From Aquimarina amphilecti (GTDB lineage: Bacteria; Bacteroidota; Bacteroidia; Flavobacteriales; Flavobacteriaceae), in contig NZ_FOAB01000007.1 of assembly GCF_900109375.1 (NCBI RefSeq), forward strand, positions 62,001-126,000: a DNA stretch of 64,000 nt, read 5' to 3'. The notes beneath the pieces are model-generated. The model did no database searches, was not told the origin of the DNA, and saw only the letters and a list, made by a program, of their open reading frames with translations. The position numbers were made by a program, and so were the translations under genes. This document shows positions 5,801 through 58,128 of this stretch, piece by piece (position 1 is the stretch's first letter; the number at the start of each line of letters is the position of its first letter).

Positions 5801-6550
5801 TATTAACAATTGATACCTTCCAGTCGTCGTAACAGTATATGTAGGACTAGTTTCTCCTGAAATAATATCAAAAACCATTGTAGTCTCATTAAAAACAGAC
5901 CATTCATAACGTATTGCTCCATCCGATGTCCCATCTAAAACAACAGGATCAGAACCACAAATATCTTGGTTAGGCCCAAGTGTCGCTTCCAATATAGAAC
6001 AGTCAGTAGAGCCAGTACCACCTGTCTGCTGAAAATTAATAAAACCAGGTTGCTCCGAAAAATTAGTAATTAAAACAAGATAAAAGTCTCCGGCTGTAGC
6101 CGCAGGAATATTCATTGTCTCGACAGCATCTGGCAAATAACTACAATCTACTGTATTCCCTGCGGTTAGCTGCGCAGTACAAGGAGAAACAGGATCAGGA
6201 AATGGTCCGTAACATATAAAGTCGACATCTAACTGTGTTCCTGTTCCATCCTCATTAGTCGATTGTGAAATACGAAACGTTAATGCACCCGTATCATCTA
6301 TCTGCAGGTAATACCAAGCAGGGAAAGGCTGTGTAGTTAAACACCCATAATTCGGGCCAATTTCAGAACTACTAACACAACTAGAATTAGAACTATTACA
6401 ATTAGGAAAAACAATACCTGTAGTACTACAAAAAGGATCAGCGCCATCATCCCCTACAGAATCAGCACAAACAGAGCCTTGTGCGATACTAAAATTCGTA
6501 TAAATAAAAAAAAACAAAAATAATATGGATGCAGGTATACTTTTACTCAT
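2825..6550 (-). CDS. T9SS-secreted repeat protein with type-B (gliding-associated) C-terminal domain
   Basis: A 1241-residue cell-surface or secreted protein. ATG at 6550 is chosen over an upstream TTG, giving a signal peptide ending near SIAQG. The N-terminal ~180 residues match the N-terminus of the neighbouring paralogue (CSxx..FPN, CLTTQPFPAWYYL, LDVDFICYGPF). Next is an Ig/PKD-like segment, then about eight modules of ~95-100 residues, each opening with a Cys-Asp-rich motif followed by F-[DN]-L (for example ACDDDGNGIEAFDL, LLQCDDDTDGISLFNL). The last ~85 residues are the T9SS type-B sorting domain (YFTPNGDGFHE, IFNRSGKLL, WDGTYNGN, SSEYWFKV, SLIR at the end). Likely an adhesin; the ligand is unknown. 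Confidence 0.85.
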   Translation of the reverse strand: MSKSIPASILFLFFFIYTNFSIAQGSVCADSVGDDGADPFCSTTGIVFPNCNSSNSSCVSSSEIGPNYGCLTTQPFPAWYYLQIDDTGALTFRISQSTNEDGTGTQLDVDFICYGPFPDPVSPCTAQLTAGNTVDCSYLPDAVETMNIPAATAGDFYLVLITNFSEQPGFINFQQTGGTGSTDCSILEATLGPNQDICGSDPVVLDGTSDGAIRYEWSVFNETTMVFDIISGETSPTYTVTTTGRYQLLIEDIDGNTETDEILITFYTPPIIANTPMDLSACDDDGNGIEAFDLTQNTSIILGAQDPTEFTVTYHFTQEDAENYTGAASDNIIIDPDNFVNTVADQVIWARIGGTNQICFEIISFVLRVYENPVANVPMNIELCDNALDGDDTNGVVEFDLSNVAVEVLGTQNSVDFVVSLYESQADADAGVLGTELPNNYSNITNPQTVYARIHNTSEQSCFETTSFQLIVNPLPVVTPIVSLLQCDDDTDGISLFNLSEANTLISSNAVNEFFSYYLTEIAAINADPANQIVNFTAYSNPIPINSTVFSRIETDKGCFRTAQIDLVVSATQIPASFNLTYRVCDDVNMDNDDTNGIASFDFSDATNQVTALYPAGQVLIVTYYENLADALAEENAIIDLSNHRNEVSPFVQNLYIRVDDGSSNGCLGLGQHIRLEVAALPENNPVTDFRLCSDDPGRATFDLTEKNAEVIGSQTGTLLVSYHRTEIEAVNNTGQITGVFTNESNPQTIWVRVQSDDNNNGTADVDECFRSTISFDLQVLHNPELINPDPINLCSDQVNTVYNLTLREDQITGGATNIVLAYYESQNDVDTDNAIPNPASYMNTTLIRELIVVGRDTDNSCFSSVTLQLRTTLYDDFNISPTALETCESDQEGVGVFDLTLAVQDILNLNDADISNDLSISDYNIDYYELMQDAELGNANTISSPLAYQNVQIFNQVVYVRVDPLAMGNDCFRVIPVQLIVNALPDFTLEEEYVLCLENDGVIINLIPTDVIDTSLDDTIYDFQWYVGVTATTGNEIPGEIGAIYSPTTAGQYSVLVTNNRTMCVSVVETTVVESYPPQIEDFTVELLSGAFSDNATIEVMVGSDAIGEYEYRLDSGDWQSSPIFTRVSRGEHFVYVRDVFMCGEIELSVEFVVDYPRYFTPNGDGFHESWGIVGNDNVQINGILIFNRSGKLLKDLGSLGTWDGTYNGNLLPSSEYWFKVRYTENGIMKEFNASFSLIR

Positions 6551-6765
6551 TACCAATCTTTAAATAAATGATAAAACAGCTTTGTTTATTAAATTCAAGG
6601 CTTTCCTATATAAAACAATCATACCAAAAGAAACCCTAACAAATAATATCAGAAAAACTAAAAATAACTCAATGACAAAAAATTACACGTAGTTAGTTGA
6701 CAAAATTTAAAAAGCACTTTTTAAAAAACTACAAATACCTAAGAAAAAGCTGAATTTAATACAGT

Positions 6766-8298
6766 CTACCTAATTAAAGAAAAACTACCTGCAAATACTC
6801 TTCTTCCTCTATTTGGATCACGATCTGATTGCTCATTAAACTCCACTCTAAACCAATATTGAGAAGAAGGCATTAAATTTCCATTGTAAGTTCCATCCCA
6901 ACCCGCTCCAGTTGGGTTAAGTTGTTTTAACAATTTTCCCTGTCGATCAAATATGTATACTAATGCAGGAGTTGGTTGATCTTCTGGATTGATTAAATTC
7001 CAAGTTTCATGAAAACCATCTCCATTTGGTGTAAAATATTTAGGATATCCTAAAATCATAATATCTACGGATGTCCTCTCATTATCTGGACAATTAACAT
7101 ATCGAGCTACAATGCGATAATCACCTGGAGGAACTCCTTCAAATATTGGAGAAGACTGATAAGGTCTAGATTCTACAAAATTACCATCCATATTTACATC
7201 TCTATCTAATCGATATTCAAAATCAGTAAAGCCTTCAGCTTCAACTATTGGATCTGTAGATATTTCTGCTGTTATGGTATAACTACCCGAAAATGATTCT
7301 TCGGTAATATTATAACCAACTTGAAATGTAATTTGAGAAACATCCAAAACAGAAACTTGATCAGGAGAATCCGGCACTTCAACATCATTTACATCAAAAC
7401 CTCTTAACCTATATATTCCATTAGAAGTCACATTATCATAAAAAGGAAAAGTAGCACCAGGGATATCTACAAAATTAGTATCCCCTAAATCCGCCCTAGA
7501 CCATTGAAAGGTTTCTGCTGCAGGAACAGCCGGTGGTCCAGTACTTGCAGGAAATCTTCCTTCTATTGTTAAAGGGAACTCACCACAAGTAGCGATTCTA
7601 TCCTGAGGAATTCCAGGCTCTAAAACACTACAATCTGTAGTTCCTGCCCCATCTTCTCCAAGATTAGTTTGTTCTAATTGTATCACTCCCGCTTCATCAG
7701 AAAAATTAGTTATCAATACTATATAAAACTCCCCTGTTTGCGCGTTAGGAATTGTGAATGTTTCTATAAAATTATCATCTGATGTCCTTGCATAACTACA
7801 ATCTACAATATTGGTGTTATCTTCATCTCCAATATAAAAGTCGGGTTCATCTGCATTGTTAACACATTCAGCTGGACGAATATTATCTCCATCACCATTA
7901 AGATCGCATCCTCTAGACAGTTCATCATCACAATTAACTATAAAAGAAGTCTGAAATGGACCCCAAGCAATAAAATCAACATCAAGCTGTCTTTCGTCGC
8001 GGTCCAAACGGTTATCTCCATCAGTATCCATCCATTGCCTTATATCAAAAACCAATTCACCAGATTCATCAATAAGTAAAAAATACCAAGAAGGGTTTGG
8101 GGTAGTATTTAAACAACCAACTTCTCCTAAACCATCAATATCACCTATAGTATTAGGAAATGTTAATTCTAGAGAAGCATCAGAACAAAAGGGTTGAGCA
8201 TTTCTACAGGCGACATCAAAGTCCTGCGCGTTTATTAGTGCGCTGTTCAAAAAAAACAGCACAGACAATAATAAGATTTGAGGTAGTAATTTTGTCAT
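6766..8298 (-). CDS. T9SS-secreted protein with type-B C-terminal domain
   Basis: A 510-residue paralogue of the following minus-strand gene. Signal peptide MTKLLPQ..LINAQD. The N-terminal domain shares PFCSD, FPN, CLNTTPNPSWYFL and LDVDFIAWGPF with its neighbour. It contains Asp-rich stretches resembling calcium-binding loops (DTDGDNRLDRDE, DLNGDGDN) and a single Ig-like domain. It closes with the T9SS type-B sorting domain (YFTPNGDGFHETW, FDRQGKLLKQL, WDGTYNGNLMPSSQYWFRV, GSFSLIR). The series of ~95-residue modules found in the neighbour is absent here. Separated from the neighbour by ~215 bp of AT-rich DNA; the pair probably arose by tandem duplication. Confidence 0.85.
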   Translation of the reverse strand: MTKLLPQILLLSVLFFLNSALINAQDFDVACRNAQPFCSDASLELTFPNTIGDIDGLGEVGCLNTTPNPSWYFLLIDESGELVFDIRQWMDTDGDNRLDRDERQLDVDFIAWGPFQTSFIVNCDDELSRGCDLNGDGDNIRPAECVNNADEPDFYIGDEDNTNIVDCSYARTSDDNFIETFTIPNAQTGEFYIVLITNFSDEAGVIQLEQTNLGEDGAGTTDCSVLEPGIPQDRIATCGEFPLTIEGRFPASTGPPAVPAAETFQWSRADLGDTNFVDIPGATFPFYDNVTSNGIYRLRGFDVNDVEVPDSPDQVSVLDVSQITFQVGYNITEESFSGSYTITAEISTDPIVEAEGFTDFEYRLDRDVNMDGNFVESRPYQSSPIFEGVPPGDYRIVARYVNCPDNERTSVDIMILGYPKYFTPNGDGFHETWNLINPEDQPTPALVYIFDRQGKLLKQLNPTGAGWDGTYNGNLMPSSQYWFRVEFNEQSDRDPNRGRRVFAGSFSLIR

Positions 8299-8673
8299 GT
8301 TTTATATAACGTAGGTTAGTCTATTTTCTTGTGTAGGAATTAAATTTACTAATTTTAAAAATATAGAGTGCATAAAACAATGATATTATTTATAATTGTT
8401 AACATAGCTTTCACTAAGTAAAACGACAAAATCGTATCTTTGCAGCCTGTTTATAATTGATTTTATTTGAATTTGAGAAATCCCTTGAATTTATTGATAA
8501 ACATCGACATATAAATTGTAGGAAATTTAGAAAAAGAATTGCTTTGAGTTTTAAACAACCTAAGGTCTGATTTTGAAAGAAACATATATCGAAAAAACGA
8601 TGCGCTATAATTTAGTCAATAGCTGTTTTTACTCATAATTCTTTTTATTTGATAATAACAAAATTTTGAACTT
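8299..8673. other. folE upstream region with short reading frame
   Basis: A 375-bp non-coding stretch between divergent genes. It holds a -7 box (TATCTTTG at 8435-8442), implying a plus-strand leader of roughly 225 nt before folE. Inside that leader a 12-codon frame, MRYNLVNSCFYS, runs from ATG 8600 to the stop at 8636-8638. Whether it is translated is unknown. I see no clear riboswitch fold or terminator in the leader. Confidence 0.4.
8435..8442 (+). promoter_or_regulatory. Bacteroidota -7 promoter box (TATCTTTG)
   Basis: Exact match to the Bacteroidota primary sigma -7 consensus TAnnTTTG in an otherwise AT-rich gap upstream of folE. A canonical -33 TTG at the right distance is not evident (CTTTC is found there). 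Confidence 0.5.
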
Positions 8674-9351
8674 GTGAAGATAGACAAGGCCCTTGAAGCT
8701 ATTGAAGCGCTAGGTGATAATCATGTAGCTACTAGCGCGACAACTCCTCTGAGAGAAGATGCATTTAAATTAAGTGATCAAGAAAAAATTGCTTCGATCA
8801 GAGAAGATGTAAAGCATATTATGGAAACTTTAGGATTAGACCTTAGCGATGACAGTCTTAAAGGAACTCCTCAACGAGTTGCAAAAATGTTTGTTAACGA
8901 AATTTTCTCTGGATTACATCCTGAAAGAAAACCAGACGCCTCTACATTCGACAATAACTATAAGTACGGTGAAATGCTTGTAGAAAAAAATATTACAGTT
9001 TATTCTACCTGCGAACATCATTTACTACCAATAGTAGGCCGTGCTCACGTAGCTTATATTTCTAATGGTACTGTAGTTGGATTATCTAAAATGAATCGTA
9101 TTGTAGATTACTATGCAAAACGTCCACAAGTACAGGAGCGTCTAACTATGCAAATTGTACAAGATCTTCAAGTAGTTTTAAACACTAAAGATGTAGCTTG
9201 TGTTATAGATGCCAAACATCTATGTGTAAATTCTAGAGGTATTAGAGACATAGAAAGCAGTACAGTTACCAGTGAATTTGGAGGGAAATTTAAAGAAGAT
9301 GCTGTACGAAGAGAATTTTTAGACTACATAAAATTAGATACTACATTTTAA
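8674..9351 (+). CDS. folE: GTP cyclohydrolase I
   Basis: A 225-residue GTP cyclohydrolase I. It converts GTP to 7,8-dihydroneopterin triphosphate, the first step of folate/pterin synthesis, as a cytosolic homodecamer. The zinc ligands are visible: Cys113 and His116 in TCEHHLLP, and Cys184 in KHLCVNSRGI. LKGTPQRVAKMF and GLSKMNRIV are further family signatures. The start is GTG; no in-frame ATG lies near. Its N-terminal extension (ALGDNH..TPLREDAF) is typical of flavobacterial homologues. It opens a probable folE-cysS-yidD run with short gaps (40 and 8 nt). Confidence 0.97.
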   Translation: MKIDKALEAIEALGDNHVATSATTPLREDAFKLSDQEKIASIREDVKHIMETLGLDLSDDSLKGTPQRVAKMFVNEIFSGLHPERKPDASTFDNNYKYGEMLVEKNITVYSTCEHHLLPIVGRAHVAYISNGTVVGLSKMNRIVDYYAKRPQVQERLTMQIVQDLQVVLNTKDVACVIDAKHLCVNSRGIRDIESSTVTSEFGGKFKEDAVRREFLDYIKLDTTF

Positions 9352-34093: not shown

Positions 34094-34167
34094 GGCCTCG
34101 TAGCATAACTGAATAGTGCACTTGATTACGGCTCAAGAGGTTGCAGGTTTGAATCCTGCCGAGGTCA
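34094..34167 (+). tRNA. tRNA-Arg (anticodon ACG)
   Basis: A complete 74-nt cloverleaf. Acceptor GGCCTCG/CGAGGTC (one G-U), D stem GCAT/GTGC, anticodon stem CTTGA/TCAAG with loop TTACGGC giving ACG (A34 read as inosine, decoding CGU/CGC/CGA), T stem GCAGG/CCTGC. Discriminator A; CCA is not encoded. Confidence 0.95.
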
Positions 34168-34177
34168 CAAAAACTAA

Positions 34178-34406: not shown

Positions 34407-34436
34407 TTGAGTTTTATTATTTTGTTAATAATTTTG
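34407..34436 (+). promoter_or_regulatory. promoter of the BLUF-AraC gene
   Basis: TTG (34407-34409), 19-nt spacer, TAATTTTG (34429-34436): a full Bacteroidota promoter. The predicted transcript start leaves a ~25-nt leader before the ATG at 34470. The existence of this promoter argues against the in-frame TTG at 34407 being the start codon. Confidence 0.7.
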
Positions 34437-34469: not shown

Positions 34470-35921
34470 ATGTTAGGTTTAAAAGAAGATAGTCCATTAG
34501 AAATGTTGCGACAATTTGCTGTTTATTTTGATGCTGATTTAACTGAGAATTTTGGTGCAGCTCAGCTATTTTTAGACAACAAAGAAGGAAAAGGCAGTAT
34601 CAGTCTTTACGAAATTTTCCCTGGACTAACAGCATGGATTTATGATATTAATCTTAATTCGGAATTGGTAATTGACATGACATTTTCAGAAGACAAACCA
34701 TACTATTTTGGATATAATGTGAATGGATACCAACTACAGAAATTTCCCAATGAAGACCAATATCAAAAAATACAACAAGGTCAAAATTTTGTTATAATTG
34801 GTAAACCTGGAAATAAAGCAGAATTTATAGTTCCCAGTAATATCAATTATGAATGTTGCTATTTGATTATTAATCCTATTCTTTTACAAAATAGTTTAGC
34901 AGGAAGTAAAAGAAGATTGCAACAAGATTTAAAGGAAACATTTGACCTATCAGATAGAGAAAATCCCTATAGATACTTTGGAAACATTGACACTAGAACT
35001 GGAACATATGCAAAAATTGTAGTTCGCAATAAGAGAACGGATTTAGTAGGACGATTACTTACAGAAGGTGCGGTAATGAATTTGCTTGGGACACAAATTG
35101 AAGCACACGATTATGATATCAACACTGAAAACTTTCAACCTAATTTATCTAAAAAAGAGCTATCACGAATAACAAATTTAGGAGATTATATTTTAAAAAA
35201 TATTGGCGAAAAAATAACAATAGGCAAAATGAGTAATCATTTATCTCTTTCGCCTAAAAAACTTCAGATGGGTCTTCGTTTTTTATATGGTACTTCAGCA
35301 AACGAATATCTTACTAAATGTCGCTTAGAATTTGCGAAAGAAATGATGCATACAACAGATAAGAACATTTCAGAGATTTGTTACAGCGTAGGGTACCAAA
35401 ACAGAAGTTATTTTTCAAAAGTCTTCGAAGAACGATATGGTATTCTACCTAGTTCATATAGACAATCTTTTAGTGGAAATAATTTTTTATTTGAAATCAG
35501 TTATCGCTCTTTAGCTGCTGAAAATGTATCAGGAAATGAAGTAGACTCTATTATAAAGACCGCTAGAAATATGAATCCCCTACATAACATAACTGGAAGT
35601 ATTATATATCATCGTAAAATTTTCTTTCAAATGATTGAAGGTCCTAAAAAAGAAATTATTACTTTATTTAAAAATATAGAAAAAGATAGTAGACATAGTG
35701 ACATTCAGGTTATGTGGAAGGGTTCTAAATTGAAAAGAGACTTTTCTGATTGGTCCATGGCAACAATATCTGATGAAGGTATATTAAAAGTACCGCAGCA
35801 AGGAGAAACTAAAGAATTGGCCATCAATAACTTACTTGGGAAACTAGATTACAGAGCGCTTGCCTCAGAAAATTTATGGCGAAAAGTGAGAAATATCATA
35901 AAAATCTCTTCTAAAAATTAA
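34470..35921 (+). CDS. AraC-family regulator with C-terminal BLUF blue-light sensor domain
   Basis: A 483-residue protein. Residues 1-~220 are the same N-terminal domain as in four AraC paralogues downstream (GKGSISLYEIFPGLTAWIYD; YRYFGNIDTRTGTYAKI). An AraC HTH follows at ~226-336 (ITIGKMSNHLSLSPKKLQ; SEICYSVGYQNRSYFSKVF). Residues ~341-435 are a BLUF flavin domain, very close in pattern to AppA: SYRSLAAEN with Tyr345, RNMNPLHNITG with Asn369, FFQMIEGP with Gln387, DSRH, and FSDWSMA with Trp428 and Met430. All key residues of the FAD hydrogen-bond switch are present. A DYRALASEN echo of the first BLUF strand lies in the tail. Predicted to couple blue light to transcription. Confidence 0.9.
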   Translation: MLGLKEDSPLEMLRQFAVYFDADLTENFGAAQLFLDNKEGKGSISLYEIFPGLTAWIYDINLNSELVIDMTFSEDKPYYFGYNVNGYQLQKFPNEDQYQKIQQGQNFVIIGKPGNKAEFIVPSNINYECCYLIINPILLQNSLAGSKRRLQQDLKETFDLSDRENPYRYFGNIDTRTGTYAKIVVRNKRTDLVGRLLTEGAVMNLLGTQIEAHDYDINTENFQPNLSKKELSRITNLGDYILKNIGEKITIGKMSNHLSLSPKKLQMGLRFLYGTSANEYLTKCRLEFAKEMMHTTDKNISEICYSVGYQNRSYFSKVFEERYGILPSSYRQSFSGNNFLFEISYRSLAAENVSGNEVDSIIKTARNMNPLHNITGSIIYHRKIFFQMIEGPKKEIITLFKNIEKDSRHSDIQVMWKGSKLKRDFSDWSMATISDEGILKVPQQGETKELAINNLLGKLDYRALASENLWRKVRNIIKISSKN

Positions 35922-36481: not shown

Positions 36482-37123
36482 ATGGAAGAGGCAACCAAAA
36501 AAGAACAAAATACAAAATTCGAAATACTACCTATTCTTAGAGATAGATATAGTCCGAGAACATTTTCATCAACTCCTATTTCTGAAACTGAACTTAGAAC
36601 TCTTTTTGAAGCAGGACGATGGGCTCCTAGCTCTTATAACAGACAACCTTGGATAGTAATTTGGGGTATAAAAGGAAGCAAGACATATGAGAGAATTTTT
36701 AATTGTTTAAGCAATTTTAATCAATCCTGGGCCAATAATGCACCAGTGCTACTGTTAAATGCTTACAAGAAAACAACAGAAGAAGGAAAAGAGAATTTTC
36801 ACGCCTTACACGATCTAGGGCTCTTTATGGGTAATATTACAGCCCAATCTCAACATTTAGGTATTGCCTTGCACCAAATGGCGGGCGTAAAATATCAAAA
36901 AGCAAAAAAAGAATTTAACTTTCCCGAAGAATATCATGTAGCTACTGCGGTAGCTTTAGGATATTATGGTGGTGATCCACAAAAATTACCTGAGGACCTA
37001 AGAGAAGAAGAAAACCCAGATAACAGAACTCGTCTTATGCAAAGAGAATTCACTTTTAATGGTGATTTTAATAATGAAACTGGGTTATACTCCTCGAACC
37101 AAGAAACCGTTTTAACCGATTAA
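36482..37123 (+). CDS. nitroreductase-family flavoprotein
   Basis: A 213-residue FMN-dependent oxidoreductase. Visible: RYSPRTFSSTPISETELRTLFEAGRWAPSSYNRQPW (FMN-binding N-terminus, quoted in parts: RYSPRTF, EAGRWAPSSYNRQPW), HDLGLFMGNITAQSQHLG, and the C-terminal VATAVALGYYGG. Family members reduce quinones, nitro compounds or enals. Followed at 91 bp by the hibernation factor on the same strand; these three same-strand genes (36482-38213) look like a stress-response unit. Confidence 0.88.
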   Translation: MEEATKKEQNTKFEILPILRDRYSPRTFSSTPISETELRTLFEAGRWAPSSYNRQPWIVIWGIKGSKTYERIFNCLSNFNQSWANNAPVLLLNAYKKTTEEGKENFHALHDLGLFMGNITAQSQHLGIALHQMAGVKYQKAKKEFNFPEEYHVATAVALGYYGGDPQKLPEDLREEENPDNRTRLMQREFTFNGDFNNETGLYSSNQETVLTD

Positions 37124-37214
37124 CTACTATAATCGTTTAAAAAAATCCACTCTAAAAAACACATACATAAATCACGTTTTTAACCATATAAACATCTATT
37201 AAAATTTAAAAAAT

Positions 37215-37514
37215 ATGAAAACAGTTTTTGAATACACTAATGTTTCTGCAAGTAATCGTTTAGAATCATTTGTAGAAGAAAAATTAACAAACCTATCCAA
37301 TAAATATCCATTTGTCATTCGCGGAGATGTATTCTTTAAGAAAGAAAACAAAGATGATGATACTGGTCATATCTGTGGTATTCGCTTAAGTGCACCAGGC
37401 CCTAGGCTTTATGCCTCTTCCGAAAAGACTAGCTTTAAAGAAGCTATTACAGAAACTATACGTGATCTAAATAATCAATTAGAAAAGCGAAAAGACAAAA
37501 TGAAAACTTTTTAA
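37215..37514 (+). CDS. ribosome hibernation factor (HPF/RaiA family)
   Basis: A 99-residue short-type HPF/RaiA protein that binds the 30S decoding region and silences ribosomes. Pattern: FEYTNVSASNRLESFVEEKLTNLSNKYP, RLSAPGPRLYASSEKTSFKEAITETIRDLNNQLEKRK. It lacks the long C-terminal dimerisation domain. Its position between redox enzymes in a stress cluster fits a stationary-phase or stress role. 18 nt upstream of the DJ-1-like gene. Confidence 0.88.
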   Translation: MKTVFEYTNVSASNRLESFVEEKLTNLSNKYPFVIRGDVFFKKENKDDDTGHICGIRLSAPGPRLYASSEKTSFKEAITETIRDLNNQLEKRKDKMKTF

Positions 37515-37532
37515 TTATAAAATCTATTAAAC

Positions 37533-38213
37533 ATGAAACTATTATTTGTATTAACCTCACACGATAAATTAGGCAATACCGGTAAAAAAACAGGTTTTTG
37601 GATTGAGGAATTTGCCGCTCCATATTACTATTTAACTGAAAAAGGAGTGGAAATTACATTAGCTTCTCCAAAAGGTGGTCAACCTCCAATTGATCCAAGC
37701 AGTGACAAACCCGAAAATCAAACAGAAGCAACAAAACGATTTCATAGTGACAAACAATTACAAGAAAAATTAAGTAAAACAATTGTGCTCTCTGAAATTA
37801 ATGAAAAAGACTACGATGCAATTTTTTATCCAGGTGGCCACGGACCATTATGGGATCTGGCAAATGACAAAGATTCTATAAGATTATTACAATCATTTTA
37901 TAATAACCATAAGCCTACTGGCTTAGTTTGTCACGCACCAGCTGCACTTAAGAACGTTAAAATAAATACAGGAGAGTATTTAGTCAAAGGAAAAAAAGTA
38001 ACTGGATTTACTAATACTGAAGAAAAAGCAGTAGAACTTATAGATGTAGTACCATTTTTGGTAGAAGATATGCTAAAGGAAAATGGAGGTATTTATAGTA
38101 AAACAGAAAATTGGAAACCATATTCTATACAAGATGGTAATTTAATAACTGGACAAAACCCTGCTTCGTCTGAAGAAGTTGCAGAAAAAATATTCAATAT
38201 GTTAAAAAATTAA
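37533..38213 (+). CDS. DJ-1/PfpI (Hsp31-like) family protein
   Basis: A 226-residue class I glutamine-amidotransferase-fold protein. Nucleophile elbow GLVCHAPAAL gives Cys133-His134; Glu25 in GFWIEEF completes the DJ-1-type site; FYPGGHGPLWDL is the oxyanion region. Relatives act as glyoxalase III, deglycase or holding chaperones (Hsp31/HchA, YajL). 18 nt after the hibernation factor; a strong terminator follows. Confidence 0.88.
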   Translation: MKLLFVLTSHDKLGNTGKKTGFWIEEFAAPYYYLTEKGVEITLASPKGGQPPIDPSSDKPENQTEATKRFHSDKQLQEKLSKTIVLSEINEKDYDAIFYPGGHGPLWDLANDKDSIRLLQSFYNNHKPTGLVCHAPAALKNVKINTGEYLVKGKKVTGFTNTEEKAVELIDVVPFLVEDMLKENGGIYSKTENWKPYSIQDGNLITGQNPASSEEVAEKIFNMLKN

Positions 38214-41578: not shown

Positions 41579-42643
41579 TTATAACACTCCGATCTCTTCT
41601 TCTACTGGCTGTTCAGTTTTATTTTTAAAGTCATTGGGACTAATGTCATATTTTTGTTTAAAAATTTTAGAAAAATAACTTCTACTACTGAATCCTATAG
41701 AATATACGATTTCAGAAATATTCATATCGGTAGTTCTAATTAAATCCCTGGCAGCTTCTAACCTTACGTGACGAATATACTCTGTAACTGTTCTGGCATA
41801 AAGCAATTTAAAACCTTCCTGAAGCTTTGCCTGCGGCAAACCTGTTTCTTCAGAAATTTGCTCTAACGAATAGTCCTTCGCAACATTTTTAATAATTTTT
41901 TTAGCTAAACCTCTTATTAACTTCAATTCCCTTTTCAATAAAGTCGTAGGTAATACTTCTTCTTTCATAGCACGATCATGCTGTTGAATATGCATTGATA
42001 GAATTTGATAAATCATTCCTTCAATTTGCAAAACTCTAATCATCCCTTTCTGCTTTATTTTACGTAAAGCTCCTATTTGATCGGCTAGCTTAAGATTAAA
42101 AGTTCCGAAATAAGCAAAAGATTTCTCGTGATCCTCATCCATAAAAACTTTATATAATTTTTCATTTAATTGAGAAACATTGTTTAACCTTTTCTTTAAG
42201 TATTTTTTTCTAGAAATTTGAATTACATTGATCTCTAATTTTTCTTCTTTCGGAAAATATCCATAATTGTAACCACCTTCTCTACTCGTAATGATTACAG
42301 ACTGAAATTGTTCTAAACGATGAATCTCATCTTGATATCCAAAGCGATGACCACAAAAACCTGTAAGGCAATATGCAAAATGGATAGGATTATATTCTGA
42401 CGCGTCCATAACCAACACAAATTCTTTATGAAAGATAATATCATATTCTAATAAATTGACACCCCAATCAAAAGTAATGAAACGTATTGTCCCATGAGCA
42501 TTTAAATTATTGACAGTAAGCGTATATTCACCCCATCGTTCTTGAATCTCTCCACCAATGACTTCTTGAATCTGCCTTACGGTTCCTTCAGTATCTTTTG
42601 CAGTAATATTTATATCAATGGCGGTGGTTGGATTAGATTGCAT
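41579..42643 (-). CDS. AraC-family regulator, paralogue of the BLUF-AraC protein
   Basis: A 354-residue regulator. The N-terminal domain matches its paralogues: IQERWGEYTLTVNN, HGTIRFITFDWGVNLLEYDIIF (quoted in part), FAYFGTFNLKLADQI. The C-terminal double HTH is at ~245-340 (YSLEQISEETGLPQAKLQEGF; SEIVYSIGFSSRSYFSKIFKQKYDISP). It has no BLUF domain. Its N-terminal domain probably binds a ligand or dimerises. On the minus strand a TATTTTTG box lies ~50 nt upstream of the start. Target genes are likely the adjacent stress genes (inference). Confidence 0.9.
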   Translation of the reverse strand: MQSNPTTAIDINITAKDTEGTVRQIQEVIGGEIQERWGEYTLTVNNLNAHGTIRFITFDWGVNLLEYDIIFHKEFVLVMDASEYNPIHFAYCLTGFCGHRFGYQDEIHRLEQFQSVIITSREGGYNYGYFPKEEKLEINVIQISRKKYLKKRLNNVSQLNEKLYKVFMDEDHEKSFAYFGTFNLKLADQIGALRKIKQKGMIRVLQIEGMIYQILSMHIQQHDRAMKEEVLPTTLLKRELKLIRGLAKKIIKNVAKDYSLEQISEETGLPQAKLQEGFKLLYARTVTEYIRHVRLEAARDLIRTTDMNISEIVYSIGFSSRSYFSKIFKQKYDISPNDFKNKTEQPVEEEIGVL

Positions 42644-43351: not shown

Positions 43352-43858
43352 CTAAGCTTCTCTAATCATACTTGTATCCAAATGATCACTTGTACTTTTA
43401 GACCAAGCATTTAACATCCAACTTGATTTTTCTAATTCTCTAATATATGCTCCTATCATATCGATAGTTCCCTCGTCATTTGCTTCTTCCGCATGCGTTA
43501 ATATCAATTTCATTTGCACCAGTAATTTTTTATGATCCCCTAAAAGTTCTTTCACCATTTCTACATCTTTCATTAAAGGCATTACTTCTTCTATAGATCC
43601 CATTTTTATATATTCCTTAAATTGGCTTACGGGATGGTGTTGTAGTGTTAAAATTCTTTCAGCTATTTCATCAATTTTAACCTTAGCTTCATTATATAAA
43701 TCTTCAAATTTTATGTGTAAATCAAAAAAGTTTTTTCCTAAAATATTCCAGTGAAACCCTCTTAATTTTTGATAATATATATTGTAGTCAGCCAATAAGA
43801 TATTTAGTTCTAGTACTACTGGTAAAAGCTTTTTCTCATCCATGTTCAAATAATTCAT
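43352..43858 (-). CDS. dps: Dps ferritin-like DNA-protection protein
   Basis: A 168-residue Dps that oxidises and stores iron in a dodecamer and protects DNA from peroxide. ATG 43858 (MNYLNMDEKKLLPVVLELN) is chosen over an upstream TTG. The inter-subunit ferroxidase residues are present: His36 (FHWNILG), His48 (FFDLH), Asp63 and Glu67 (KIDEIAERIL). The N-terminus lacks a Lys-rich DNA-binding tail. Upstream of a secreted protein on the same strand. Confidence 0.94.
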   Translation of the reverse strand: MNYLNMDEKKLLPVVLELNILLADYNIYYQKLRGFHWNILGKNFFDLHIKFEDLYNEAKVKIDEIAERILTLQHHPVSQFKEYIKMGSIEEVMPLMKDVEMVKELLGDHKKLLVQMKLILTHAEEANDEGTIDMIGAYIRELEKSSWMLNAWSKSTSDHLDTSMIREA

Positions 43859-44081
43859 AGCGTTTTTATTTAAGATTAATAATATGTTTTGTAAACTCAA
43901 AGATGCTATCTCTTGTTTTGTTCATCACAAAGATACCTTGACACTATTCGCATCTTTTGCTCATATACTATTTATCTTAACTCAATTGTAAGAAAGAAAA
44001 TTTAGTGAAAATATATATCACATATTTGAAAAGAAGAATAACTCAATCTGTAAATATATATTAGGCGATAAAATAATCTTT

Positions 44082-53460: not shown

Positions 53461-54474
53461 CTAATTTTTCATCTTATATTCTTTAGGACTATACTTATAT
53501 TTTCTCTTAAAGATTTTACAAAAATAACTTCTACTTGTTAACCCTACGGAGTAAACGATTTCAGAAATAGTTAAATCTGTAGACCTTATAAGTTTTTCGG
53601 CTTTCTCTAAACGTACATTTCTAACAAAATCAGAAACTGTTCTTTCGAACATAAACTTGAAACCTTCTTGTAATTTAGCAGGAGACAAACTAGATTCATT
53701 ACATAATGTTTTTATACTATGTTGTATCTCTGGTGATCTTCTAATAAAATCACTTAACTCAGAAATTATCTTCAATTCCTTTTTTAACAACCCACTAGTG
53801 TTTGAATCATTGTCCATTTCTAAACAAAATTTTTCTATTTGTTTTGCCAAAATGAGATAATATCTACCTTTTTGCGACAGTAACTCTGAGATTTTATTTG
53901 TGTATTCAATACCGATTAATAATCGTAATTGCTCTGCTATTTTAAGACTATAACTCCCAGGATGAAAATGTTTTGGTTTACTGTCTATATGCTGCAATAA
54001 CTCACGAAGTTTTTTTCCGAATTGATTCGATTCTTGACTAAATTCACGGAAATACTCCCTTTTATCAATAAATATATTATTTAAAATCACTTTTTTCTTT
54101 GCAGAAATAAACACGTGATTCCGCAGCCCAGCATTACTATGTACTACAGCGGTCTGGAATTGATCTATTTGCCTTATTATACTTTCATCATCAAATCTGT
54201 GAGCGCAATCTCCTTCTAAGCAATAAAAAAATTGTAGTGATTCTTTTCCATATGAATTTATAGGCAATTCAATATCCTTAAAAACAGTGATATCAAAATC
54301 AAAAGCTTTCAACCCTTTATTTAAGCAAGTAAAACGTAATTCACCAGAACCTATTTGTTTACCTATCGTTAGTATAAATATATCCTGTTCTTGGGTAATA
54401 TCCCCTTCTAGTAGTTCTTTAAGAGCATAAATCTCCGCAGGAACGGAATCAGAATTTGCTGTTAAATGCTCCAT
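53461..54474 (-). CDS. AraC-family regulator, paralogue of the BLUF-AraC protein
   Basis: A 337-residue regulator. N-terminal domain: IGSGELRFTCLNKGLKAFDFDI (quoted in part) and HFHPGSYSLKIAEQLRLL, matching its paralogues but the most divergent there. C-terminal HTH: IKTLCNESSLSPAKLQEGF and SEIVYSVGLTSRSYFCKIFKRKY (quoted in part). No BLUF domain. A TAATTTTG -7 box on the minus strand (54540-54533) lies 59 nt upstream. Divergent from the SRAP-like gene, sharing a 243-bp control region. Confidence 0.9.
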   Translation of the reverse strand: MEHLTANSDSVPAEIYALKELLEGDITQEQDIFILTIGKQIGSGELRFTCLNKGLKAFDFDITVFKDIELPINSYGKESLQFFYCLEGDCAHRFDDESIIRQIDQFQTAVVHSNAGLRNHVFISAKKKVILNNIFIDKREYFREFSQESNQFGKKLRELLQHIDSKPKHFHPGSYSLKIAEQLRLLIGIEYTNKISELLSQKGRYYLILAKQIEKFCLEMDNDSNTSGLLKKELKIISELSDFIRRSPEIQHSIKTLCNESSLSPAKLQEGFKFMFERTVSDFVRNVRLEKAEKLIRSTDLTISEIVYSVGLTSRSYFCKIFKRKYKYSPKEYKMKN

Positions 54475-55878: not shown

Positions 55879-56901
55879 CTATCCTTTTTCTTTGATTTTT
55901 TTTCTATAATCCATAGGAAGTATTCCATACTGTTCGAAAAAAATTTTTGAAAAATAGCTTCTACTTTTGAAACCTATATTATATACAATTTCTGAAATAG
56001 AATCATTAGTATTTTTAATATAGTCTCTAGAAATTTCTAGTTTTAGCTGTCTTGTATACTCATTAACTGATTTGGAGTACAAAACTCTAAATCCAAGTTG
56101 TAATTTCTTAGGACTCAATCCTGCTTTTGTCGCTAGGAATACTACTGATAATGGTTCAGATATGTTATCGATAATATACGCAGATAGATTATGAATTTTT
56201 TTAATATCTTCTTTTGAAAGTGATTCAGGAAAAGATTTACCGTTTTGATAATTACTATGCTCTAACAATTGCATCGCCAAGATCAGATTTAACTGTCCTT
56301 CTATAGAAAGAGTTCTTACGATACCTGTTTTATGACTATCTTGTAATTGTTTGATTTGATCTGCTATTTTCAAATTATAATTACCATAATGTTTATAAGG
56401 AGATTTATTCTTTTCTTCCTTAAAGACAGCAAACAAATCCTTACTTAAATAAGAAAGATTATTATTTTTCTTCTTAGCATATTCTACTGGTAAAATATAA
56501 ATAAAATTCACCTTAACAGTTGTCATTTGCGGAAAAACATAAGTCTCTTCAGGTTTTTTTTTAGGGGATATAATAATATTCTGATAGCGTTCAAACGTAT
56601 AAGGTTTGTCCTCGATATCGTTAGTATAATCTAATTTCCCTTCTGATATAAAAATGAACTCAATTGGGTTTGATTTTCCAACATTAAAAACAATTTTCGT
56701 ATCCTGAGTAAAGTTAACATCATAATCTAGTAAAGAAACGCCCCAATCAAAAGAAATACTCCTTACTAATCCCTTTCCTAGTTCATTGTCAAATTCTAAA
56801 ACGTGTTCACCCCATTGAGAAACTATAGTACCTTTTAAATACGAGTTTAACTGTTCTAAAATTTTAGTTCCATCAATGCTATTAATTTTAATCTTTTGCA
56901 T
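55879..56901 (-). CDS. AraC-family regulator, paralogue of the BLUF-AraC protein
   Basis: A 340-residue regulator. N-terminal domain: IVSQWGEHVLEFDN, GKGLVRSISFDWGVSLLDYD, YKHYGNYNLKIADQIKQL; closest by eye to the 41579 paralogue. C-terminal HTH: VVFLATKAGLSPKKLQLGF and SEIVYNIGFKSRSYFSKIF. No BLUF domain. Its upstream gap (183 bp) separates it from another AraC gene in the same direction. It shares with the BLUF protein the HTH wording SPKKLQ.GLRVLYS-type helix. Confidence 0.9.
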   Translation of the reverse strand: MQKIKINSIDGTKILEQLNSYLKGTIVSQWGEHVLEFDNELGKGLVRSISFDWGVSLLDYDVNFTQDTKIVFNVGKSNPIEFIFISEGKLDYTNDIEDKPYTFERYQNIIISPKKKPEETYVFPQMTTVKVNFIYILPVEYAKKKNNNLSYLSKDLFAVFKEEKNKSPYKHYGNYNLKIADQIKQLQDSHKTGIVRTLSIEGQLNLILAMQLLEHSNYQNGKSFPESLSKEDIKKIHNLSAYIIDNISEPLSVVFLATKAGLSPKKLQLGFRVLYSKSVNEYTRQLKLEISRDYIKNTNDSISEIVYNIGFKSRSYFSKIFFEQYGILPMDYRKKIKEKG

Positions 56902-57084
56902 TCTCCTCTTAGATTCTCTGCTATATTTAAAGTTTTAAGCAAAGGAATTAGATTTAGATCAAAAAGATTAACAATTTTGAAACATATACTAACACTTTTG
57001 GTCAGTTTGCATCTAAGAAAATGACTGTTTTATATATAAAAACTGTGTTTTAAAAAGTATTTTATTGATTCTATTAGGTTTATG

Positions 57085-58128
57085 TTATGCAGATTTAGAA
57101 TCGTCTTTTTTATTCCTTACCTGATTTAAATATTGTTTTGGGTTTACACCAAATCGATTTTTAAAAAGTTTTGAGAAATAACTCCTTGAATTAATTCCTA
57201 CTTTATAAGTGATCTCTGTAATATTAAGCTCAGAAGTTTCTAGTAGTTCCTTGGCGCTATCAATCCTAAAATTTCTAATATACTCGTTTACTGATGTTTT
57301 GTAAAGCTGTTTAAAACCATTTTGTAGTGTATTTTGATTCAAACCTACTCTTTTTGCTAGATTGACCACATTATCTACACTTTCTAATTCTTCTTTTATA
57401 ATAGTAACCGCCTCTTCGATACTTTCTATTGTTGCCTGACGTAAAATTAACCTTCGATCAGGTTCATTTAAATCATCCAAATATTGCTGTAACTGATGAG
57501 TTAATATTTCGTATGCTTTTCCTTCGAGATATACTTGACGCATAAAACCTGAAAGTTCACATTCTGTAAACTCAGAAATAAACTTAGAAATTTCAAGGCT
57601 ATAATAATTTTTATAATAAAACTCATTGATTCCATTTACATCCCTAAATAGTTCTACGAGATCCTCATTCATATTTGCCAAAAAAGATTCTATTTTCCCT
57701 TCAAATAATTTTCTATTAATCTCAATGCTAAAAATACAAATTGGAGTATTTGCAGGAATTTTAAAAACATGGTTATTTTTAGGAGTACTAGAAACAATTA
57801 CGTTTTCTAATCGCTTTATTTCTCTAGATTCTTCATTTTTTTCTAATTTATGATAAAAACCAGATTCTCTATTAAATATAATCTTCAATGGATGAATTAT
57901 TCCTTTCTCTAATTCGAAATGAAAATCCTTTTTTAACAAATAATCTGTTTCGACAACTCCTATTCCAAAATCAAATTGATATGATTTAACATAACCTGAA
58001 CCAAATTCTTCTGGCAATCGTACACAATGTTCATGATTAGCGTCCTCATAAGAAACCCCTAAACTTTTAGCCAAATCAATTACAACGTCTTTTACATCGC
58101 GATCCTGGATATGTATTTTTTTCTTCAT
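57085..58128 (-). CDS. AraC-family regulator, paralogue of the BLUF-AraC protein
   Basis: A 347-residue regulator. N-terminal domain: GSGYVKSYQFDFGIGVVETD and FYYKNYYSLEISKFISEF. C-terminal HTH: VVNLAKRVGLNQNTLQNGF and TEITYKVGINSRSYFSKLFKNRF (quoted in part). No BLUF domain. Upstream on the minus strand is TACCTTTA, one base off the -7 consensus. Divergent from DUF1328; 194 bp between them. Confidence 0.9.
   Translation of the reverse strand: MKKKIHIQDRDVKDVVIDLAKSLGVSYEDANHEHCVRLPEEFGSGYVKSYQFDFGIGVVETDYLLKKDFHFELEKGIIHPLKIIFNRESGFYHKLEKNEESREIKRLENVIVSSTPKNNHVFKIPANTPICIFSIEINRKLFEGKIESFLANMNEDLVELFRDVNGINEFYYKNYYSLEISKFISEFTECELSGFMRQVYLEGKAYEILTHQLQQYLDDLNEPDRRLILRQATIESIEEAVTIIKEELESVDNVVNLAKRVGLNQNTLQNGFKQLYKTSVNEYIRNFRIDSAKELLETSELNITEITYKVGINSRSYFSKLFKNRFGVNPKQYLNQVRNKKDDSKSA

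Follow-up and report, generated by a model that had tools for sequence, protein, structure and literature searches.

Among described systems, the BLUF proteins AppA, BluF and BlsA are some of the closest to the protein reported here, as they share its BLUF domain and have an end effect on transcription. The BLUF photoreaction requires a tyrosine and a glutamine, and in AppA-PpsR and BlsA alike the regulator is a protein of its own, bound by the BLUF protein. The same is described for BluF, which binds the regulator BluR, in the sections consulted of PMC3509220. According to a 2014 survey, 64% of BLUF proteins are short and 34% carry EAL domains; the survey counts LOV and BLUF together when it describes helix-turn-helix (HTH) proteins as occurring “quite frequently” among flavin blue-light proteins, and its section 10 names no BLUF-HTH protein (PMC4844311).

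Light perception and DNA-directed output also meet within single proteins of other kinds. EL222 has an HTH of a different type and no cupin-like domain. In EL222-type LOV-HTH proteins, a single chain senses blue light with a flavin, by LOV chemistry, and binds DNA with an HTH (PMC4844311, in part). CarH and LitR are light-responsive transcription regulators in one protein, of the MerR family and with a B12 chromophore (abstract of PMC6739363). In BLADE, an engineered protein, blue light controls AraC-type DNA binding through the LOV domain of VVD joined to the AraC DNA-binding domain (sections consulted of PMC9096073).

We analysed a stretch of 64,000 nucleotides of the Aquimarina amphilecti genome, called the window below, in which one gene codes for an AraC-type regulator fused to a BLUF domain. 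It differs from BluF-BluR in having the DNA-binding domain in the same chain, from EL222 in using BLUF, and from CarH and LitR in joining BLUF to AraC. Compared to BLADE, which is man-made and has LOV in place of the N-terminal domain, the BLUF domain is added C-terminally and the N-terminal domain is retained. The protein thus appears as a new architecture within the known one-component light-responsive regulators, its light function being a prediction. The initial annotation knew of no characterised case of such a fusion, and our literature search, conducted at the level of titles and abstracts, likewise found no description of a BLUF-AraC protein; an earlier listing is possible. None is mentioned in the sections consulted of PMC9614035, PMC4603819, PMC4844311, PMC3509220, PMC9096073 and PMC9020721.

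An AraC regulator with a C-terminal BLUF domain

The fusion gene is a single open frame (Table 1). The ATG at its head matches the starts of the relatives in alignment A1; the TTG at 34407, which the ORF lister had picked further upstream, is an unlikely start, since the relatives' starts align with the ATG. Three Pfam domains exceeded their cut-offs, HTH_18 and BLUF by far: HTH_18 (PF12833) with 71 bits for a cut-off of 33.6, HTH_AraC (PF00165, residues 293-332) with 40.1 bits for 26.6, and BLUF (PF04940) with 90.3 bits for 25. By these borders, 7 residues separate the second HTH from the BLUF domain. In the PDB, the BLUF part is nearest to AppA BLUF structures (E 5.6e-13) and the HTH part to AraC-type DNA-binding domains (best E 2.2e-10). 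No PAS or LOV domain, and no EAL, GGDEF or cyclase output domain, was detected in the Pfam scan at E 0.1. Matches to NCBIfam were all below cut-off for the best 25 of the 26 families matched, the top one being AraC with 65 bits for a cut-off of 208. The domain search proposed in the initial annotation thus returned both of its Pfam domains, and bears out the architecture that it had read, an AraC double HTH followed by BLUF. Tyr345, Asn369, Gln387, Trp428 and Met430, which we take to be the counterparts of AppA's switch residues, stand where it had placed them and align with the corresponding AppA motifs. With a domain match far above chance, and the full-length fusion recurring in other genomes (see below), the observation is confirmed.

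Table 1. Features of the window discussed in the text (positions in the window).
Feature	Coordinates	Strand	Basis or remark
tRNA-Arg(acg), upstream of fusion	34094..34168	+	
BLUF-AraC fusion gene	34470..35921	+	ORF of 483 aa, ATG start, Pfam, alignment with relatives
Cupin-like N-terminal effector/dimerisation domain (putative), about residues 1-225	34470..35144	+	Predicted structure, Foldseek
AraC double helix-turn-helix, residues 255-332	35232..35465	+	PF12833 E 1e-19, PF00165 E 3.8e-10
BLUF domain, residues 340-431	35487..35762	+	PF04940 E 8.5e-26; Tyr345, Asn369, Gln387, Trp428, Met430
C-terminal helix (LWxxVRNxI), residues 467-480	35868..35909	+	Motif common to short BLUF proteins
Nitroreductase, S30AE (ribosome hibernation type) and DJ-1/PfpI genes	36482..38213	+	Near end of conserved stress island
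Unfused AraC paralogue	41579..42643	-	
Weaker operator-like site, upstream of ferritin/Dps-like gene 43352-43900	44014..44047	-	Score 17.2
Unfused AraC paralogue	53461..54474	-	
Unfused AraC paralogue, 21-bp direct repeat upstream	55879..56901	-	
Operator-like TGTTA-N16-TGTTA, upstream of paralogue 55879-56901	56965..56998	-	Score 27.1, best in window
Unfused AraC paralogue	57085..58128	-	

The N-terminal half had been described as paralogue-type, and the window indeed holds four unfused AraC paralogues, 21-29% identical to the fusion. An AlphaFold2 model built from six sequences (mean pLDDT 65.9) shows a beta-rich domain, then helices, then the double HTH. Block pLDDT is 74-93 for residues 1-140, about 51-70 up to 230 and 64-91 up to 330; beyond that the model is poor, with about 33-56 for the BLUF part, owing to an alignment in which BLUF is present in just two rows, and about 30 for the C-terminal helix, which nevertheless appears in it. 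Foldseek placed ToxT, CsvR and Rns at the top, at E about 1e-9 to 1e-7; their TM-scores, at about 0.2-0.4, were low, so that the fold class is supported and the domain arrangement is not. In the AraC regulators ToxT, CsvR and Rns, the N-terminal domain is cupin-like and binds a ligand; with these and with AraC itself, the fusion has in common HTH_18 and, by Foldseek, possibly a similar N-terminal domain, and it differs from the AraC/XylS regulators by about 150 extra C-terminal residues containing BLUF. The N-terminal half therefore has the look of an effector domain of the cupin type found in AraC regulators, which makes the protein probably a two-input regulator, responding to a ligand and to light. 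Of the earlier proposal of a one-protein switch from light to transcription, the architecture and the complete set of BLUF switch residues stand; a pure light switch is the part that probably does not.

Conservation, spread and history of the fusion

Conservation was scored over 31 aligned fusion rows (30 distinct fusions, L089_10 being a truncated duplicate). Tyr345 is present in all 31, Gln387 and Asn369 in 30 each. Trp428 is kept in 26 rows and replaced in 5, and Met430 is kept in 20, with Leu in 10. Residue 386 is Phe in 29/31 fusion rows, compared to 3/42 stand-alone BLUF proteins, where it is mostly Val, Ile or Leu. For the BLUF part, four of the nine pairs compared gave an estimate of dN/dS, at 0.07-0.18, and the other five were saturated; for the HTH part the ratio was 0.06-0.13 in its four estimable pairs, with synonymous sites near saturation in some. 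These ratios show the BLUF part to be under purifying selection among close relatives. The LW/FW motif of the C-terminal helix was found in 29/31 fusion rows and in 27/42 stand-alone BLUF proteins, and since the two groups have this tail in common, the unit that was fused seems to be a complete short-BLUF module, tail included. In one full-length AraC-BLUF protein (G022, L130 514-1956), which sits on a very long branch, the BLUF domain is strongly diverged and reaches 44 bits; this protein is possibly a light-blind descendant.

Relatives were searched with alignment A1, up to 4 candidates per genome being scored (10 in the family of G519), and the fusion counts are lower bounds. At genus level, 66 genomes were searched and at least 9 have fusions, one of them probably being Aquimarina sp. 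U1-2. Among the matches listed, full-length or near-full-length fusions came from the source genome (G000) and from G010, G013, G022, G024, G027, G030, G050 and G051, with four copies in G027 and five in G030. In the Flavobacteriaceae, 13 of 397 genomes exceeded the threshold; at least 11 of them carry fusions, in 9 genera, and two (G252 and G401) have unfused AraC genes only. Across Bacteroidota, at least three of 395 genomes have the fusion (G000, G219 and G519). G519 belongs to another family, in which it was the single genome with a fusion among 150, at up to 10 candidates scored per genome. A scan of genome contigs gave one relative and a scan of viral contigs none; of 72,556 plasmid records, 723 matched parts of the query and none had a single place covering 80% of it.

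A search with BLUF alone in 385 Bacteroidota genomes gave 67 matches (66 above the cut-off) in 44 genomes. Four lie in frames of at least 489 aa, all of them AraC fusions (G000, two in G219, G519); the other 63 are in frames of at most 219 aa. This agrees with the initial view of the fusion as unusual. It is nonetheless a recurring protein family, and so more general than was stated at first. AraC is not the sole fusion partner of BLUF in the Flavobacteriaceae, as G317 encodes a protein joining BLUF to a guanylate/adenylate cyclase (L133 6354-7382). Stand-alone BLUF genes may also be clustered: the source genome has three in tandem, of 134-145 aa (C8, L134 7185-8651), and triplets with similar spacing are present in G013, G024 and G051.

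Trees were made for each domain by quick searches without bootstrap; they contain long branches, and the duplicate L089_10 was left out. The AraC tree contains 63 unfused relatives besides 30 fusions; fused and unfused labels change 4 times in it, compared to a mean of 25.6 after shuffling, and the strongly supported branches force at least 2 changes, a single change being excluded there. All fusions except one (29/30) group with seven unfused members in a single clade (36 rows, support 89), and the exception is the diverged G022 row on its very long branch. In the tree of BLUF domains, of which 30 come from fusions and 42 stand alone, the labels change 2 times, and a single change would be compatible with it. 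One old fusion followed by some BLUF losses would fit these trees, and it is also possible that the fusion arose more than once. The seven clade members without BLUF indicate that the AraC part is able to work without light. One of the unfused members of this clade is a G030 gene (L068 5919-6938). A distinct BLUF gene (6943-7383) lies 4 bp behind it, and the domain of this gene groups with the stand-alone ones. At the same locus (5919-8816), a convergent BLUF-AraC fusion overlaps the BLUF gene by 4 bp at its 3′ end, so that split and fused forms are adjacent.

A direct repeat of 21 bp upstream of fusion genes

Many fusion genes are preceded by a direct repeat, TGTTA-N16-TGTTA, with a period of exactly 21 bp. 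In the 150 bp upstream of 27 fusion genes, a TGTTA pair at this period was present in 8 cases, compared to a mean of 0.0 and a maximum of 1 in 200 shuffles, and at no other period from 14 to 33 was a pair found (0/27). The near-identical sisters L056 and L064 were left out of this count, and the diverged L130 out of all upstream sets. With a matrix derived from the sites, 15 of 29 fusion upstream regions scored above 15; this figure is partly circular, because the matrix was trained on fusion upstreams, whereas the period count is not. Among 459 ORF upstreams of the fetched loci, the exact pair was present in 10, belonging to 9 fusions and to the unfused paralogue 55879-56901 of the window. 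Two further ORFs scored above 15, one in L061 (17.8) and the ferritin/Dps-like gene of the window (Table 1). Among the 63 unfused relatives, the top 11 scores (21.8-27.8) all lie in the 13-member clade of paralogue 55879-56901, and of 42 stand-alone BLUF genes one exceeded 15 (L033 gene 1333-1776 of G145, 18.4). Between the repeat and a TAnnTTTG box, the spacing was 26 bases in 5 of 15 cases and 16 in 3 of 15, the latter near-identical; these spacings are listed without a null. The half-sites of AraC are likewise spaced by two helical turns, 21 bp, and the repeat upstream of the fusion's relatives may match the arrangement of AraC/XylS regulators; it looks like an autoregulatory operator.

The window fusion itself lacks the repeat (upstream score -2.7), as do its closest relatives L005, L056, L057, L072 and L121, the highest score among them being 6.9. 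Autoregulation is thus well supported, as a prediction, for part of the family only, and unsupported for the window fusion. An alternative direct repeat was sought with 9 sequences and 8 spacings. None was found before the window fusion at p 0.05; 6 of the 72 uncorrected tests passed, in L061, L066, L072 and L121, the last having its own repeat of 19 bp. The two sites of the window in Table 1 stand out in score, as 20 shuffles of the window gave none above 17, and the weaker one is a possible target of an AraC paralogue. TGTTA pairs with one mismatch were at background in the window (16 compared to 12.8). A broad regulon in the source genome was considered and found no support: the pattern TGTTA...TT...TGTTA gave 7 sites, compared to 6 for the reversed control, and a longer pattern, allowing up to 3 mismatches, gave 8 compared to 3, with 56965-56998 as its sole exact match.

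The adjoining stress island and the function proposed

The fusion lies 560 bp from the nitroreductase gene, and the stretch beyond it also codes for an aldehyde dehydrogenase, YtxH, a ferritin/Dps-like protein, FMN reductase, topoisomerase IB, DUF2383 and SRAP. Strong relatives of the nitroreductase were found in 15 of 57 genus genomes searched. An earlier blastn comparison of these loci might have missed diverged fusions and was repeated with protein profiles, which detected no BLUF domain within 1.5 kb of the nitroreductase in the 14 other genomes; the window locus served as positive control and was detected. In three genomes (G050, G010 and G052; loci L171, L172 and L173), islands with the same nitroreductase and S30AE genes have a stand-alone BLUF gene 182-303 bp upstream of a same-strand AraC gene. 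A Pfam scan of the G050 island, on which the family search of the island was run, also showed a phytochrome kinase, three response regulators and a heme oxygenase; in G010 and G052 the phytochrome was confirmed by profile, the other counterparts being judged from inspection of the sequence only. Phytochromes are present in 15 of 57 genus genomes and absent from the source genome. In at least 7 of these 15 (G002, G010, G027, G043, G050, G052 and G065), a phytochrome gene and an AraC relative share a contig and lie no more than 5 kb apart. Light input to such islands is thus recurrent; the place of the fusion is not.

Two other explanations of the gene's surroundings were tried and rejected. The neighbours listed for the 27 fusion loci differ from locus to locus, which speaks against a conserved target operon, and integration at tRNA genes gave no pattern, with tRNAs in the window and in only 3 of 26 other fusion loci. 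Two distant genomes have a homologous gene beside the fusion (cluster c49; L060 6813-7565 and L072 6678-7391), presumably pirin-like.

We consider it likely that the window fusion is a one-component, flavin-based blue-light transcription factor. That it is dedicated to the adjoining stress island is doubtful. It does border the island, the islands of three other genomes carry stand-alone BLUF and phytochrome, and an unfused paralogue is present in the fetched region of 7 of 27 fusion loci, that of the window being 5.7 kb away. Against this, the fusion of G024 is about 0.8 Mb from the AraC island, and the site before the nitroreductase scores only 8.6. Together with the lack of BLUF near the nitroreductase in 14 genomes and of an operator before the window fusion, this makes the island link, which the initial annotation had implied, weaker for the window gene.

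The BLUF domain could also be photochemically intact and signal by contact with a partner, an unfused AraC paralogue or another regulator, the fusion being a mere tether. Four such paralogues are at hand in the window, stand-alone BLUF genes adjoin AraC genes in G030 (4 bp apart, L068) and precede them on the same strand in G050, G010 and G052, and E. coli BluF acts through binding BluR (sections consulted of PMC3509220). This explanation seems improbable to us given that the HTH of the fusion is complete, above the Pfam cut-offs, and that operator-like repeats precede many of the fusion genes themselves, which points to direct DNA binding. Still less probable is that light is not the physiological signal and that the BLUF domain responds to flavin or to the redox state, or serves mainly as a structural element. 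Many redox and stress genes do surround the fusion (nitroreductase, DJ-1, ferritin/Dps-like, FMN reductase), and the Trp and Met positions vary across the family, but Tyr and Gln are kept in 31 and 30 of the 31 rows, and the BLUF part evolves under purifying selection in the pairs tested.

As a one-component regulator, the protein would bind DNA as a dimer through its AraC part, the cupin-like domain mediating dimerisation and probably sensing a small molecule. At the C terminus, the BLUF module would bind FAD and undergo, on illumination, the hydrogen-bond switch of its photocycle; this may alter the hold of the second HTH, or of the dimer, and turn DNA binding or activation of the targets up or down. 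Many members of the family probably control their own promoter through the TGTTA repeat, its 21 bp placing the half-sites two helical turns apart. In the source genome, a likely role would be to bring a stress or photo-oxidative response under the influence of blue light. A wider picture can be drawn with less assurance, and we offer it tentatively: the fusions may form a natural two-input family, in which cupin-like and BLUF domains bracket one DNA-binding domain, which arose early in the Flavobacteriaceae, reached up to five copies per genome, lost BLUF in part of its lineages, and couples light to a stress regulon common to the unfused AraC paralogues and, in some relatives, to phytochrome.

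If the protein is read correctly, a direct DNA-binding output would be added to the repertoire of BLUF domains, and the engineered light-controlled AraC would have a natural single-chain counterpart, whose predicted operator in relatives is directly testable. The role of blue light in these bacteria would then be testable gene by gene, including in the genomes that have four or five such regulators.
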